Source: Alphaproteobacteria bacterium
Lineage (GTDB): Bacteria > Pseudomonadota > Alphaproteobacteria > Micropepsales > Micropepsaceae
Length of the DNA stretch: 64,000 nt
Assembly: GCA_013389115.1 (NCBI GenBank)
Contig: JACADY010000061.1
Location: 1 to 64,000 of the forward strand
Direction: 5' to 3'
Part shown: positions 20,809-48,662 of the stretch, piece by piece
How the letters are laid out: each line of letters starts with the position of its first letter
Position numbering within the stretch: the stretch's first letter is position 1
Notes under the pieces: generated by a model
What the model was told of the DNA's origin: nothing
The model's database searches: none
Seen by the model: only the letters and a program-made list of their open reading frames with translations
Position numbers and translations under genes: made by a program

Positions 20809-20837
20809 TTGACGCGCCTCAAGAACCAAAATAGAAC
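20809..20837 (+). promoter_or_regulatory. Putative lexA promoter
   Basis: TTGACG (20809-20814), 17 bp, then TAGAAC (20832-20837) gives a plausible sigma-70 promoter. Its -10 element overlaps the first SOS box, the arrangement expected for LexA autorepression. Confidence 0.5.
20823..20837 (+). promoter_or_regulatory. LexA operator (SOS box) 1, perfect GAAC-N7-GAAC
   Basis: GAAC at 20823-20826 and 20834-20837 are separated by seven bases, an exact match to the alphaproteobacterial LexA recognition sequence (GTTC-N7-GTTC on the other strand). It overlaps the predicted -10 of lexA. Confidence 0.75.
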
Positions 20838-20891: not shown

Positions 20892-21617
20892 ATGCTGACG
20901 CGCAAACAGTACGAATTGCTCATGTTCGTGCATCAGCGTGTGCGAGAAACAGGCGTTCCCCCCTCATTCGAGGAAATGAAAGAGGCGCTGGATTTGCGCT
21001 CCAAATCCGGCATTCATCGCCTCATCACCGCGCTGGAAGAGCGTGGCTTCATCCGCCGGCTGCAGCACCGCGCGCGGGCGATCGAGGTTGTGAAGCTGCC
21101 GGAGAATTCGGGTCAGGCGCATGCCCAAGCGCGGCGCGGATTTCAGCCCGCCGTGATCGACGCGCATGGGCGGCGCGATGTTCGCCCCGCCGTTGCACCC
21201 GCTGTCTCAAAGCCTGTCCCTGTTTCCGCCTCTCCCGGTGTCAACGTGCCGCTGATCGGGCGCATCGCCGCGGGTACGCCGATCGAAGCCCTGCAGAACG
21301 CCATCGACCAGATCCCCGTGCCGCCCGACATGCTGGGGACGGGGGAACATTTCGCGCTTGAGGTCACGGGCGATTCGATGATTGGCGCGGGCATCCTTGA
21401 TGGGGATACCGTCATCATCGCCAGGGCCGACACGGCGACAACCGGCGATATCATCGTTGCGCTTGTCGATGACGCGGAGGCGACGCTGAAGCGGCTGCGC
21501 CGGCGCGGTGATTCGGTCGCGCTTGAGGCCGCCAACCCGGCCTATGAGACACGCATCTTCTCGGCCGATCGGGTCAAGGTGCAGGGGCGGCTGATCGGTC
21601 TTTTGCGGCGCTATTGA
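20892..21617 (+). CDS. lexA: LexA repressor
   Basis: LexA represses the SOS regulon and is inactivated by RecA-stimulated self-cleavage. The 241-residue protein has an N-terminal winged-helix DNA-binding domain ([10 protein letters not shown] through about 65, with [12 protein letters not shown]). A long linker follows, then the S24 peptidase domain. The cleavage site is Ala127-Gly128 (GRIAAGTP), the nucleophile Ser162 (GDSMIGAGI) and the general base Lys200 (ATLKRL). The frame extends upstream to 20847, but the conserved start is ATG 20892. Two SOS boxes precede it. It converges on comEC with a 7-bp overlap at the stops. Confidence 0.96.
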
Positions 21618-29868: not shown

Positions 29869-30355
29869 CGATGTTGAGCGGGGTTCCATCGCGGTTCATG
29901 ATCATGGCGCTGAACTCGGCTTCGGCGCAAAGCCGTTCAGCGACGATTGCCTCACCATCGAAGCGCCACACGGGGCCTCGATGGCGGGCGACCTTGACGT
30001 TCAATTCCAGCAGGTCGCCGGGCAACACAGGGTGGCGAAAGCGCGCCTTGTCTATCGTCATGAAGTAGACAAGGCTGTTTTCGCCCGCGGGCCCCATCGT
30101 TTCGACCACCAGCGCGCCCGCCGTTTGCGCCATAGCCTCAATGATGAGGACGCCCGGCATGATCGGATGGCCTGGGAAGTGACCCTGGAAATGGGGCTCG
30201 TTCATACTCACGGTCTTGATGCCGCGCGCGCTGATCCCGGGAACAATGTCGACCAGCTTCTCGATCATGAGAAAGGGCGGACGGTGCGGCAAAAGCTGAA
30301 GGATGCGATCGATCCCGACGCTGCCGTCCTTTGATTTGCGCTCCCCTTTGCTCAT
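29861..30355 (-). CDS. fabZ: 3-hydroxyacyl-[acyl-carrier-protein] dehydratase
   Basis: FabZ (EC 4.2.1.59) dehydrates beta-hydroxyacyl-ACP in fatty acid elongation and competes with LpxA and LpxD for the same acyl-ACP pool. The 164-residue hot-dog protein shows [15 protein letters not shown], the catalytic His block [21 protein letters not shown] and the Glu within it. The open frame continues upstream to 30424, but ATG 30355 overlaps the lpxD stop (ATGA) and gives the normal length plus a short basic N-terminus. It is embedded in the lpxD-fabZ-lpxA order common to Gram-negative bacteria. Confidence 0.95.
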
Positions 30356-31389: not shown

Positions 31390-31464
31390 GTCGCAAGTTT
31401 AGTGCATCGCCCTTGGAATTGAAATCAAGCCAGCTTGCGCGCTTCGAAGTCTGCACAATGAGAA

Positions 31465-31491
31465 CGCCCCCGGAACGGGTCCCAGGGGCGC
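31465..31491 (-). terminator. Hairpin between skp and lpxD, weak terminator or processing site
   Basis: On the minus strand GCGCCCC pairs with GGGGGCG around a 12-nt loop and is followed by TTCTCATT, an imperfect T tract. It could attenuate transcription between the skp end and lpxD or act as an mRNA 3' stabiliser. Confidence 0.3.
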
Positions 31492-43443: not shown

Positions 43444-46400
43444 CTAGACCTCCTCGACCTCGAGGACGCCCGGCGCGGACTTGATCGCGTCGCGCAGCTC
43501 GCGCGTGATGCCATAGCGGCCGGGAAGCTCAATATCGACCTCAAGCCCCTCGCCCAGCATCGCGGTCACGATCACCTGCCCCTTTCCCGGACGAACCAGG
43601 CGCGCCGCCAGCGCTGGGAGCCCAGCACTCTCGTTCACAAAGACACGCAGGCCCGTGCCGGTTTCGGCCGTCACCTCATCGAGGGGTCGCACATTCTGGA
43701 TACGCAGCTTCACATCATCATTCTGCCATTCGGCGATGGCGTTGATGACGACGGGCGCTCCCACCTGCAGGTGAGAGCCTGCAAGGCGCAGCGTGTCTGA
43801 AAAAACAATGGCCTCAAAGACGCCGGAGGGATCAGAAAAGGTGACGAAAGCGTAGGGCGTATCGCGCTCGCGGGACTTACGGTCCTGACGGGCCAGCACG
43901 GTGCCGGCCAGCATGACGATGGCGGTTTCGCGCTTGGCCTCTTTCAGAAATTCGCCGAAAGGGCGCACGCCGGCCCGGCGCAGGGCTGTCATCGCGCTGT
44001 CGATGGGGTGGCCTGAAAGGTAGAACCCGATCGCGTCGAATTCGCGCTGCAGCCGCTCAGCCTCGCTCCAGGGAAGCGTCTGGGGGAGCGGCGGATCGCT
44101 CAATGATGCGCCCGCATCGCCAAACAGGCTCGACTGGCCGGCGCCCCTTTCCCTCGCCGTGCCATTGGCGTGGGCGATAAGGGTTTCGGCGCCGGCCATC
44201 ACCTGGGCGCGGTTGGGATTGAGGCCATCAAAGGCGCCCGCGGCGGCGAGGCTTTCGAGGGCACGCTTGCTGACGTGCCGGGGGTCAACGCGGCGGGCGA
44301 AGTCAAACAGCGAGCGAAAGGGTCTGCCCGAGGCTCTCACCTCAACCAGGTGATCCATGGCGGGCCGCCCGACATTGCGGATGGCGGCCAGCGCATAGCG
44401 GATGGCAGGCTTTCCCGCCGCGTCGAAGGCAACGGCAAACGTCGCTTCGGACTCATTGATCGAGGGGGGAAGCACGGGAATGCTGAGGCGCTCGGCCTCC
44501 TGGCGGAAAATATTGAGCCGGTCTGTCGCCCCGATATCCAGCGTCATCGAGGCGGCGATGAACTCGGCTGGATAGTTCGCCTTCAAATAGGCCGTCTGAT
44601 AGGCAACCTGCGCATAGGCGGCGGCATGGCCCTTGTTAAAGCCATAGCCGGCGAATTTCTCGGCCTGTTCGAAAATCTCCGCCGCCGCCGCCTTCGGGAT
44701 GCCACGGGTTTCGGCGCGCGAGGTGAAGATCTCGCGATTGCGAGCCATCTCGGCCTGGTCCTTCTTGCCCATGGCGCGGCGCAGATTGTCGGCCTCGCCC
44801 ATCGAATAGCCGCCCAGCTCACGGGCGATCATCATGACATCCTCCTGATAGGTCATGACGCCATAAGTCTCGCGCAAAATCGGCTCCAGCGCGGGGTGGA
44901 CGTAGTAGGGCTCCTCCTGCCCGTGCTTGCAGGCGATATATTTCGGAATGCTCTGCATGGGGCCGGGGCGGTAGAGCGCCACAAGGGCGATGAGATCCTC
45001 GATCCGGTCGGGCTTCAGCTTGCGGATGAGGTCGCGCATGCCTGAACTTTCAAGCTGGAAGACGCCGACCGAATCGCCGCGCGAGAGCATCTCGAAGGTG
45101 GCGCGGTCCTCAAAGCCCACTTCTTCGGACTTCACCTTGATCCCCCGCGCCGCCAGCATCTTCTCGGTAAGGGCGATCACGGTCAGGGTTTTGAGCCCCA
45201 GAAAGTCGAACTTCACGAGGCCGACCTTCTCATTGTTCTTGTAGTCGAACTGCGTCACCGGCATGTCCGAGCGCGGATCACGGTAAAGCGGTACGAGATC
45301 CTCAAGCGGGCGGTCGCCGATGACGATGCCGGCCGCGTGCGTGGAGGCGTGGCGGTAAAGCCCCTCGATCTTACCCACGATGTCGAACAGGCGGGCAACG
45401 TTTTCCTCGGAAGCCTCCATGTCCTGGAGGCGAGGTTCGGCCTCAATCGCCTCGCGCAGGCGCACCTGCTTGCCCGGCGGATTGGGGATCATTTTCGAGA
45501 TGCGGTCGACCTGGCCATAGGGCATTTCAAGGACGCGGCCGACATCGCGCACCGCGGCCCTCGCCTGCAGCGTACCAAAGGTGATGATATGGGCGACGCG
45601 ATCGGCGCCATAGCGCTCCTTTACATAGCGGATCACCTCCTCGCGCCGCTCCTGGCAGAAATCGATGTCGAAATCGGGCATCGATTTGCGCTCAGGGTTC
45701 AAGAAGCGCTCGAAAACCAGCTTGAACCGCAAGGGGTCAAGAGCCGTGATCTCCAGCGCCCAGGCGACGATCGAGGTGGCGCCCGAGCCGCGCACGCCAA
45801 CGGGGATGCCCTGAGCACGCGTCCATTTCATGAAATCCGAGACGATGAGGAAATAACCCTCAAAGCCGATGCCCGTGATCACCGAAAGCTCATAATCGAG
45901 GCGCTTCCAATAATCGTCCTCCGGGGCAAAAAGACCGGAAGCGGCGAGGCGCTTCCTCAGACCATCCTCAGCCTGCAGGCGCAACTCCTCCGCCGCCGAG
46001 CGGCCGCCCGGAAGATCGAACCGGGGCAGGATCGGGTCGCGCTTCCGGGGTATGTAGGCGCATCGGCGCGCGATTTCGACGGTATTCGCAATCGCCTCAG
46101 GCAAATCCTCAAAAAGCTCCGCCATCTGCCCGGCGCTCTTGAAGAAATGTTCTGGCGTCACGCGCCTGCGATCCGCCTGGCTGACATAGGAGCCGGTGCC
46201 AATGCACAGAAGGGCATCGTGCGCCTCGAACAGATCCTCCCGGGCAAAAAAGGGCTCATTCGTCGCCACCAGCGGCAGACCCAGCGCATAGGCGGCGTCA
46301 ACGAGCCAGCCTTCGGTATCAATTTCCTCTTGTGCGCCATGGCGTTGCAGCTCGACGTAGAGGCGGTTTTTGAAGATACGCGCAAGGTTCTCCAAATGCC

Positions 46401-46959
46401 GGCGGGCGGCATCGCCCTGCCCGGCGGCGACGAGCGCGTTGATGGCGCCGCTCGGCCCTCCCGTCAGACAGATAAGGCCCTCGGCCATCCCCTCCAAATC
46501 GGCCAATTTCACGTGCGGCGGCTCAGCCGGGCCAACGCCAAGGAATGAACGGCTGACAAGCTTGGAGAGATGGCGCCAGCCCGTTTCATTCTGAACGAGC
46601 AAGACGAGATAAGAGGGGTCACGCCTCGAGGCAGCCTGCCCCCCAGCCTTGAGGCTGCGGGTATCATCCTCGCCCAGATCAACCGCAAGCTGGCAGCCCA
46701 TGATTGGCTGGAGCCCCTTGTCAGCCAGCACCTGAGCAATCTCGACCGCACCAAAGAGATTGCCGGTGTCCGTGACGGCAACGGCCGGCATGCCATTGGC
46801 CCTGCAAAGGGTCGGGAGGTCCTTGACCGGAATTGCACCCTCCAGCAACGAAAACGCGCTGTGCACCCGCAAATGCACAAAGGTCGGCGGCGATGCCGCC
46901 GCCTCCTTGGTGCCGGGGAAGCGAATGACCTCCCCTCTTTCGATTCGATTCTCTGCCAT
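43444..46959 (-). CDS. dnaE: DNA polymerase III subunit alpha (replicative, DnaE1 type)
   Basis: DnaE is the catalytic subunit of the replicase. The 1171-residue protein has the length of DnaE1. It has an N-terminal PHP domain (TFVHLRVHSAFSLLEG), then the polymerase core with catalytic acids in KSMPDFDIDFCQERREEVI and in KFDFLGLKTLT. Helix-hairpin-helix, OB-fold and C-terminal regions follow. It is not an ImuC/DnaE2, since there is no imuA-imuB neighbour and the length is that of the replicative enzyme. The frame is open to 47010, but ATG 46959 (MAENRIERGE) is the best start. A 33-residue SOS-box gene lies 60 bp upstream. Confidence 0.95.
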   Translation of the reverse strand: MAENRIERGEVIRFPGTKEAAASPPTFVHLRVHSAFSLLEGAIPVKDLPTLCRANGMPAVAVTDTGNLFGAVEIAQVLADKGLQPIMGCQLAVDLGEDDTRSLKAGGQAASRRDPSYLVLLVQNETGWRHLSKLVSRSFLGVGPAEPPHVKLADLEGMAEGLICLTGGPSGAINALVAAGQGDAARRHLENLARIFKNRLYVELQRHGAQEEIDTEGWLVDAAYALGLPLVATNEPFFAREDLFEAHDALLCIGTGSYVSQADRRRVTPEHFFKSAGQMAELFEDLPEAIANTVEIARRCAYIPRKRDPILPRFDLPGGRSAAEELRLQAEDGLRKRLAASGLFAPEDDYWKRLDYELSVITGIGFEGYFLIVSDFMKWTRAQGIPVGVRGSGATSIVAWALEITALDPLRFKLVFERFLNPERKSMPDFDIDFCQERREEVIRYVKERYGADRVAHIITFGTLQARAAVRDVGRVLEMPYGQVDRISKMIPNPPGKQVRLREAIEAEPRLQDMEASEENVARLFDIVGKIEGLYRHASTHAAGIVIGDRPLEDLVPLYRDPRSDMPVTQFDYKNNEKVGLVKFDFLGLKTLTVIALTEKMLAARGIKVKSEEVGFEDRATFEMLSRGDSVGVFQLESSGMRDLIRKLKPDRIEDLIALVALYRPGPMQSIPKYIACKHGQEEPYYVHPALEPILRETYGVMTYQEDVMMIARELGGYSMGEADNLRRAMGKKDQAEMARNREIFTSRAETRGIPKAAAAEIFEQAEKFAGYGFNKGHAAAYAQVAYQTAYLKANYPAEFIAASMTLDIGATDRLNIFRQEAERLSIPVLPPSINESEATFAVAFDAAGKPAIRYALAAIRNVGRPAMDHLVEVRASGRPFRSLFDFARRVDPRHVSKRALESLAAAGAFDGLNPNRAQVMAGAETLIAHANGTARERGAGQSSLFGDAGASLSDPPLPQTLPWSEAERLQREFDAIGFYLSGHPIDSAMTALRRAGVRPFGEFLKEAKRETAIVMLAGTVLARQDRKSRERDTPYAFVTFSDPSGVFEAIVFSDTLRLAGSHLQVGAPVVINAIAEWQNDDVKLRIQNVRPLDEVTAETGTGLRVFVNESAGLPALAARLVRPGKGQVIVTAMLGEGLEVDIELPGRYGITRELRDAIKSAPGVLEVEEV

Positions 46960-47019
46960 GGCCGGATTATGCCGATTGCGTGAAGGGCCGCAGCCCCTGC
47001 CTTCAAACACTCACAGAAT

Positions 47020-47121
47020 TCAGCGCGTCAACGCCTCGGCGATGATGAACCAACTGACGGTTGCGCCTGCAAAGGCCATGAAACCAGCCGCCGCCATGAT
47101 TTCCTCGATCCAGGTGCGCAT
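47020..47121 (-). CDS. 33-residue single-pass membrane protein behind a perfect SOS box (SidA-like candidate)
   Basis: This short frame reads MRTWIEEI, then the hydrophobic stretch MAAAGFMAFAGATVSWFII (residues 9-27), then AEALTR and TGA. A strong Shine-Dalgarno (GGAGG, six bases before ATG 47121) supports translation. A perfect GTTC-N7-GTTC LexA box lies about 40 bp upstream (47161-47175), and a TTGACA -35-like hexamer (47186-47181) beyond it. Size, topology and SOS control recall SidA of Caulobacter, a 29-residue inner-membrane division inhibitor that acts on the FtsW/FtsI/FtsN complex. Homology to SidA is not shown; the resemblance is in layout. dnaE follows 60 bp downstream on the same strand. 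Confidence 0.6.
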   Translation of the reverse strand: MRTWIEEIMAAAGFMAFAGATVSWFIIAEALTR

Positions 47122-47160
47122 AGGGAACCTCCATGCCGTTTGTTTATGATATGTTCTTTT

Positions 47161-47175
47161 GTTCCTCTTACGTTC
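47161..47175 (-). promoter_or_regulatory. LexA operator (SOS box), perfect GTTC-N7-GTTC
   Basis: GTTC at 47161-47164 and 47172-47175 with seven bases between is an exact alphaproteobacterial SOS box, the same motif as box 1 at lexA. It lies between a TTGACA (47186-47181, minus strand) and the small-protein ATG, so a bound LexA would cover the promoter. The -10 is poor (AACAAA at 47163-47158). Confidence 0.7.
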
Positions 47176-47393
47176 CTAGTTGTCAACCCTAAACATCCCT
47201 TGCGGGATGATGTTGAGAAATTTGGGAGCATTCTCGTCTCCGGGAGGTCCGTCGGCACAGTCAGGAAAGCATACAAACCCGAGCGGGCTCACGGCCAAGT
47301 TGCCGCCACCGCAGATAGATCCCTGTGACTGCACCCGGCGCTACCTTCCTGGCAGAGAGGCGGACCAGCAGTCCTTTTGATTCTCGATGAGTA
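47176..47393. other. Gene-free gap with degenerate B-palindrome remnants
   Basis: No credible gene is visible here. A small hairpin (CATCCC/GGGATG, about 47197-47212) lacks a T tract. At 47361-47383 the sequence resembles the right end of a B palindrome (CGGACCAGCAG against CGGACCACTAG) abutting a left end (GTCCTTTTGATTC), suggesting worn copies of the array found at 48.8-49.1 kb. Confidence 0.4.
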
Positions 47394-47840: not shown

Positions 47841-48662
47841 TCACGCGCTTCTGCGATAGAGCTTTGCCTTCAGGTTCAGGAGTTTGGCCTGCGTTGCATC
47901 GATGAGGTCGTTCCAGGCCTTCGACTGATCGACATATTCGGCGGCCGACAATTTGCCCGCCTGCACCTTGCCATCCAAATCGTTCAGGCGCGTCTCAAAG
48001 GCCGCCAGAGCATTCTCATATTGGCGGACAAGGTCTTGCTTACCTTCCGACTGCGCCTGAAGCACCGAGAAACGCACCTCGTAGAGGAAAAGGTACTGGA
48101 AGATATACTCGTCGTTGAAAAACGATTGTGACTGGTAAGATTCGGCCGCTACCGTGCAAAACAACGTCATGCCATAGCCCAGGCTCTCCGATTTATAGGA
48201 ATGCGTGTAGGCTAGCTTCGTCGATGCGTCGAAGCTCATGAGCACGCCGCTCAGAATGTCGAATACTTTGCCCGCGATATAAAGTCCGACCGTTGCGGCA
48301 TCCGCCGCGGCTCCACCCATCGTGACCGCAGCCTGGACGGCTTTTTTTCCTGCGTCAGCATCGGTCTTGGCGCCAGGAACAGATGATCCACTCGAGAACA
48401 GTGCGCCGCCGATCGCATCAATGATGGCCTTCAAATTTTTCAGCGTGAATTCCGATTCGTGCTGAAAATCGGCATTGGCGCCCTGCACGCAGACGATCGA
48501 GTCGTTCCAGCCGCTTTTGGCGAAGAAGGCGTCAATTTGCTTTGCCTGAACGCCCCCAAGATCTGTCGCGCTTTGTTCCAGATCGGCCTTTCTCGCAGCA
48601 ATCCAATCGCTGAACTGCTTTTCTTTCGCCATCATGTCTTGAATCGATGGTGAAGTACCCAT
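47841..48662 (-). CDS. Hypothetical helical protein of 273 residues (upstream cassette gene)
   Basis: This unknown, mostly alpha-helical protein has no signal peptide. A charged helix (about 10-48, KEKQFSDWIAARKADLEQ) is followed by a hydrophobic, small-residue-rich stretch (about 108-142, VTMGGAAADAATVGLYIAGK then VFDILSGVLM). An aromatic-rich segment (160-200) and a C-terminal coiled-coil pair (205-268) come next. Long helices around a hydrophobic hairpin recall alpha-helical pore-forming proteins, but that is only a structural impression. ATG 48662 has GGGGAG upstream. Base composition is lower in GC than the neighbouring housekeeping genes, which suggests acquisition. Confidence 0.65.
   Translation of the reverse strand: MGTSPSIQDMMAKEKQFSDWIAARKADLEQSATDLGGVQAKQIDAFFAKSGWNDSIVCVQGANADFQHESEFTLKNLKAIIDAIGGALFSSGSSVPGAKTDADAGKKAVQAAVTMGGAAADAATVGLYIAGKVFDILSGVLMSFDASTKLAYTHSYKSESLGYGMTLFCTVAAESYQSQSFFNDEYIFQYLFLYEVRFSVLQAQSEGKQDLVRQYENALAAFETRLNDLDGKVQAGKLSAAEYVDQSKAWNDLIDATQAKLLNLKAKLYRRSA

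Follow-up and report, generated by a model that had tools for sequence, protein, structure and literature searches.

Division inhibitors induced by the SOS response are so short and evolve so rapidly that they escape detection by sequence. SidA of Caulobacter crescentus is a 29-residue, SOS-induced inner-membrane inhibitor that acts via FtsW and FtsN (PMC4211646) and bears the locus tag CCNA_02004 (PMC10769358). Here we describe a 33-codon gene that is very probably the SidA version of the bacterium under study, based on a stretch of DNA of 64 kb (the window) and on the corresponding regions of related genomes. The features of the window on which the comparison turns are the following.

47186-47181, minus strand: TTGACA, likely −35 element (from the sequence)
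47175-47161, minus strand: LexA box GAACGTAAGAGGAAC, GAAC-GTAAGAG-GAAC, reading GTTC-N7-GTTC on the plus strand (exact motif)
47156-47153, minus strand: third GAAC half-site, 4 nt past the LexA box (from the sequence)
47132-47128, minus strand: GGAGG ribosome-binding site, 6 nt ahead of the ATG (from the sequence)
47121 (ATG) to 47020 (end), minus strand: sidA-like gene of 33 aa, MRTWIEEIMAAAGFMAFAGATVSWFIIAEALTR (homologues upstream of dnaE; dN/dS in relatives)
43444..46959, minus strand: dnaE, replicative DNA polymerase III alpha (NCBIfam PRK05673, 1355 bits)
20809-20814, plus strand: TTGACG ahead of the lexA box (from the sequence)
20823..20837, plus strand: LexA box GAACCAAAATAGAAC of lexA (exact motif)
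20892..21617, plus strand: lexA of this genome (TIGR00498, 180 bits; Pfam LexA_DNA_bind and Peptidase_S24)

The first-pass annotation had described the small gene as a 33-codon frame with a GGAGG site, one membrane helix, a perfect LexA box and a TTGACA element, all of which lie where it had placed them. The encoded protein has a single hydrophobic helix of the membrane type (about residues 8-28) and no match in Pfam below E 0.09. An alternative frame of 43 codons (47003-47134) was rejected: its product is non-hydrophobic, and the conserved frame is the one of 33 codons. TTGACA precedes the box by 5 nt, and a TTGAC ahead of the box is shared by most homologues of the same family and by the lexA gene of the window genome. 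At 17-nt spacing the −10 element of the small gene reads AACAAA, a poor match, and because of this weak −10 a strict σ70 scan of the promoter reported nothing. Tandem GAAC sites are seen also in Caulobacteraceae homologues; in three of these, from Brevundimonas-like genomes (L118, L134, and L135), the sidA promoter carries two boxes in tandem, spaced 18 bp from each other, in the form GAAC-N7-GAAC-N3-GAAC-N7-GAAC. The window's third GAAC may be what is left of tandem sites of this kind.

The regulatory context of the gene can be read from the same genome. The lexA promoter, with its TTGACG and box, has the layout of the small gene's promoter, recA (contig C3) has the box GAACGATCAGAGAAC upstream, and a further box stands between an ssb-like and a uvrA-like frame. 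Since the same box stands at lexA itself, at recA and at ssb/uvrA, the motif that LexA uses in this organism is, judged by sequence, GAAC-N7-GAAC. A candidate ftsW is present in the genome as well. Within the window, lexA and the sidA-like gene are just 26 kb apart, and the Caulobacter tag numbers of lexA (CC1902) and dnaE (CC1926) are close together too. Two other exact boxes in the window (29883-29897 and 31462-31476), one extending over the start of an lpxA-like gene and the other near an ompH-like gene, have spacers rich in G+C and are probably fortuitous. Elsewhere, the exact box GAACAATATGAGAAC (L177 1233-1247, G000:C72) is found 90 bp upstream of a DNA cytosine methyltransferase-like frame, ELCAGAGGQAVGLEQAG, which is possibly under SOS control as well.

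We compared this locus with that of Caulobacter, whose family was picked by CtrA identity (f57, 88%) and whose genus was picked by the S-layer protein RsaA (87% in G434, 79% in G442). Genomes of that genus (g249) carry a 29-aa frame directly upstream of dnaE with a LexA box ahead of it, in close variants among the genomes, and the protein is recognized as “cell division inhibitor SidA” by the NCBIfam model NF033228 (71.3 bits, cut-off 35). The published tags point to the same place: Caulobacter dnaE is CC1926 and recN is CC1983 (PMC1839093), recN is also ccna_02062 (PMC12700426), and with the offset between the two tag series that we infer from these, dnaE would fall near CCNA_02003-02005, beside sidA. 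The Caulobacter SidA frame at dnaE, together with these tags, thus identifies the sidA locus with the position upstream of dnaE, and by its placement and motifs the window gene occupies this locus with the same type of promoter.

With sidA found at the same spot behind a LexA box, the SidA-like reading of the first-pass annotation is anchored more firmly than that annotation itself could do, but direct similarity between the proteins is not significant. NF033228, with its cut-off of 35 bits, gives no match to the window protein even at E 10. The model scores Caulobacter and Phenylobacterium-like forms at 66 to 71 bits and Brevundimonas-like forms at 26 bits, under the cut-off (the Phenylobacterium-like and Brevundimonas-like genus labels are a guess, made partly from relatedness), and it found nothing above the cut-off in a class sample of 289 genomes that includes the Brevundimonas-like ones. 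Direct profile proof of homology failed as well: the window's family compared with Caulobacteraceae SidA gave an hhalign probability of 16%, column shuffles were not significant (p 0.10-0.13), and a further test gave z −0.3. A bridging model was built solely from nine sequences of eight other families, picked for their position and hydropathy, and was compared with a null of shuffled columns in which hydropathy was kept. With this model, Caulobacteraceae SidA reaches 13.7 bits, where the null gives 2.7 (0 of 300), and the window's family reaches 11.1 bits, where the null gives 2.3 (0 of 200); at this level of comparison the two are thus linked through intermediate sequences. The pattern common to the families is [KRQE][DE]xx[AS][AGL], followed by the helix. 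Tested by itself, the window sequence fails to reach significance with the bridging model (z 1.2), and orthology therefore rests on the locus, the promoter and the relatives.

The best explanation of these data, to which we assign a probability of roughly 0.77, is that the frame is a genuine coding gene, a diverged orthologue of sidA, and encodes a LexA-controlled inhibitor of FtsW/FtsI/FtsN. The gene itself, its box, its locus identity with sidA, coding constraint in its relatives, and the presence of LexA, RecA and FtsW support this interpretation, and the earlier one is largely supported with it. On this model, LexA bound to GAAC-N7-GAAC between the −35 element and the −10 region would keep the gene off. 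After DNA damage, a RecA filament would stimulate LexA cleavage and the promoter would open; the 33-residue protein would then be made and would insert into the inner membrane by its single helix. There, like SidA (PMC4211646), it would hold the septal wall-synthesis complex of FtsW/FtsI/FtsN inactive, and the division block would be released once repair is done. Sequence supports the steps of this model as far as the promoter; the FtsW/FtsN target and the arrest of division are predicted here by analogy with the characterized relative at the same locus. FtsW changes that suppress the effect of SidA are known (A246T, F145L). For SidA-type inhibitors, a contact on FtsW TM7 has been reported (PMC13396833).

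It is possible, if rather unlikely, that a LexA-controlled small membrane protein sits at the sidA locus and acts in another way, on another target in the divisome or envelope or through membrane stress. The sequences have diverged past direct recognition, and DidA, a further division inhibitor of Caulobacter, interacts with FtsN (PMC4211646), so the targets of such proteins can differ. Yet the locus, the box and the one helix are those of SidA, the size is similar, and the sequence similarity, though transitive, extends to SidA; these points weigh against a different action.

The proximity of dnaE raises a different question, namely whether the frame matters as a protein at all. It could be a leader peptide of dnaE, with the LexA promoter raising dnaE during the SOS response and translation of the short frame merely tuning it. 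The small gene does adjoin dnaE, as had been noted at first pass, and the neighbor is confirmed as the replicative enzyme, with PRK05673 the best model at 1355 bits. Its identity as error-prone dnaE2 (ImuC) was rejected, the error-prone model scoring 633 bits against a cut-off of 939, and the small gene's neighbor is accordingly not the error-prone dnaE2 of an SOS cassette with imuA/imuB. Farther upstream of the small gene lie lolD, lolC/E, and proS; between lolD and the sidA-like gene there is a frame of 273 codons (47841-48662) without a Pfam or NCBIfam match. From the end of the small gene to the likely ATG of dnaE at 46959 there are 60 nt (the longest dnaE frame starts with a GTG at 47010), and no terminator-like site was seen in this interval, which makes it plausible from the sequence that SOS transcription reads on into dnaE and to that extent favors a leader. 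Against it, the segment ahead of dnaE has no notable fold, and in the Brevundimonas-like genomes L118, L134, and L135 the gene and the beginning of the dnaE match are separated by 266 to 343 bp. With gaps of >250 bp in some Caulobacteraceae, read-through into dnaE is no obligatory feature of the arrangement. Moreover, the Caulobacter gene at the same spot is a tested division inhibitor (PMC4211646), the membrane helix is kept across families, and the protein is under purifying selection, so we regard the leader peptide as improbable.

This selection was seen in a check on coding constraint that the first-pass annotation had proposed, with an outcome that differs between relatives and the window itself. 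Close pairs of relatives have dN/dS values of 0.24 (6 pairs) and 0.34 (1 pair), with changes concentrated at third positions, and the Caulobacter gene has a dN/dS of 0.26, again with a third-position excess. The window compared with its sole genus-mate (36% identical), on the other hand, has no third-position excess, so the codon evidence within the window's genus is weak. The 33-aa query has two weak matches, both directly upstream of dnaE: one is in this genus-mate (39%, E 0.009), the other in a different genus of the same family (45%, E 0.003).

The further expectation that frame and box would be conserved in relatives was borne out. In 17 of the 27 genomes of the same family, the 400 bp ahead of the dnaE match contain a GAAC-N7-GAAC box, compared with 0 to 4 genomes for the other 11 tetramer permutations and 0 to 2 for other spacers, and a small single-helix frame follows the box in every one of the 17. 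The remaining ten (L019, L020, L021, and L024, of genus g6, and L027, L033, L036, L039, L041, and L043) have no such gene; the same ten also have no box upstream of dnaE. A combined protein model that does not require the box, run over 87 dnaE-upstream regions, gave 24 matches, all with a box, and zero matches in box-less regions; this concordance arises partly by construction, since the model's members had been picked near boxes, but the absence of further matches does not. In one genome of the same family (L022 1175-1370), the box precedes a version of 49 residues, MLHTTRHSRLHTNNPGTGWAREIGATVLFLAFIYGAHICVSFLAAGQGL, which the model missed and which has an ARE-helix pattern like that of SidA. 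In these upstream regions, the pairing of small gene and box position is far beyond chance. The box alone was rejected as evidence: exact boxes number 4 in the window against 1.5 expected, and genome-wide there are 66, without enrichment and fewer than the 126 found for a backwards control pattern. Although a box count no higher than expected in the window genome would fit a chance frame and a chance box between two genes, this reading is excluded by the strict conservation of box position, frame and helix across genera and families, and not by the box as such.

The same arrangement occurs in 8 of 60 other alphaproteobacterial families, each sampled by one genome (L045, L046, L047, L062, L076, L086, L097, and L103; in L097 the box reads GTTC), and upstream of dnaE in Sneathiella glossodoripedis (L159), GAACAAAAAGAGAAC is followed by MTGKNIIKSGFELLVFSGVLATMVFWAEIVHSFTG. 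These occurrences suggest, and we lean toward the view, that the SidA-type damage checkpoint is of ancient origin in the Alphaproteobacteria—a fast-evolving, LexA-controlled membrane inhibitor of 26 to 49 aa at a fixed site upstream of dnaE, present in at least 10 families, lost several times, and missed by annotation because only its Caulobacteraceae branch is recognizable by sequence. What is new here is a SidA-type gene at dnaE that is widespread yet invisible to annotation. The open literature searched, to which the original SidA paper did not belong, contains no report of SidA outside Caulobacter, so priority is uncertain, and no expression or function data for these genes outside that genus. 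If our reading is true, the division block may be tied to the supply of the replicative polymerase, with the SOS promoter able to read into dnaE. A LexA box and a tiny membrane frame directly upstream of dnaE would find such inhibitors by position, SidA would no longer be a Caulobacter speciality but a checkpoint that can be tested broadly, and many natural variants would be at hand for mapping how a helix of ∼20 residues inhibits FtsW.

Among known systems, SulA of Escherichia coli is likewise an SOS-induced division inhibitor (PMC4211646) but is larger and soluble, blocks FtsZ polymerization, and bears no resemblance to the 33-aa protein. YneA of Bacillus and ChiZ of Mycobacterium are SOS-induced one-helix membrane proteins that target FtsW or late division (PMC13396833), yet both have a LysM domain, whereas the 33-aa protein has none. 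DidA, also from C. crescentus, is a small membrane protein too; it is induced by damage and inhibits FtsW/I/N (PMC4211646) but is SOS independent, in contrast to the LexA box of the window gene. SidA itself (NF033228, CCNA_02004) is the closest counterpart: although the window protein has 33 aa instead of 29, has an acidic IEE where SidA has RE, and goes undetected by NF033228, both are tiny single-helix proteins encoded behind a LexA box directly upstream of the replicative dnaE.
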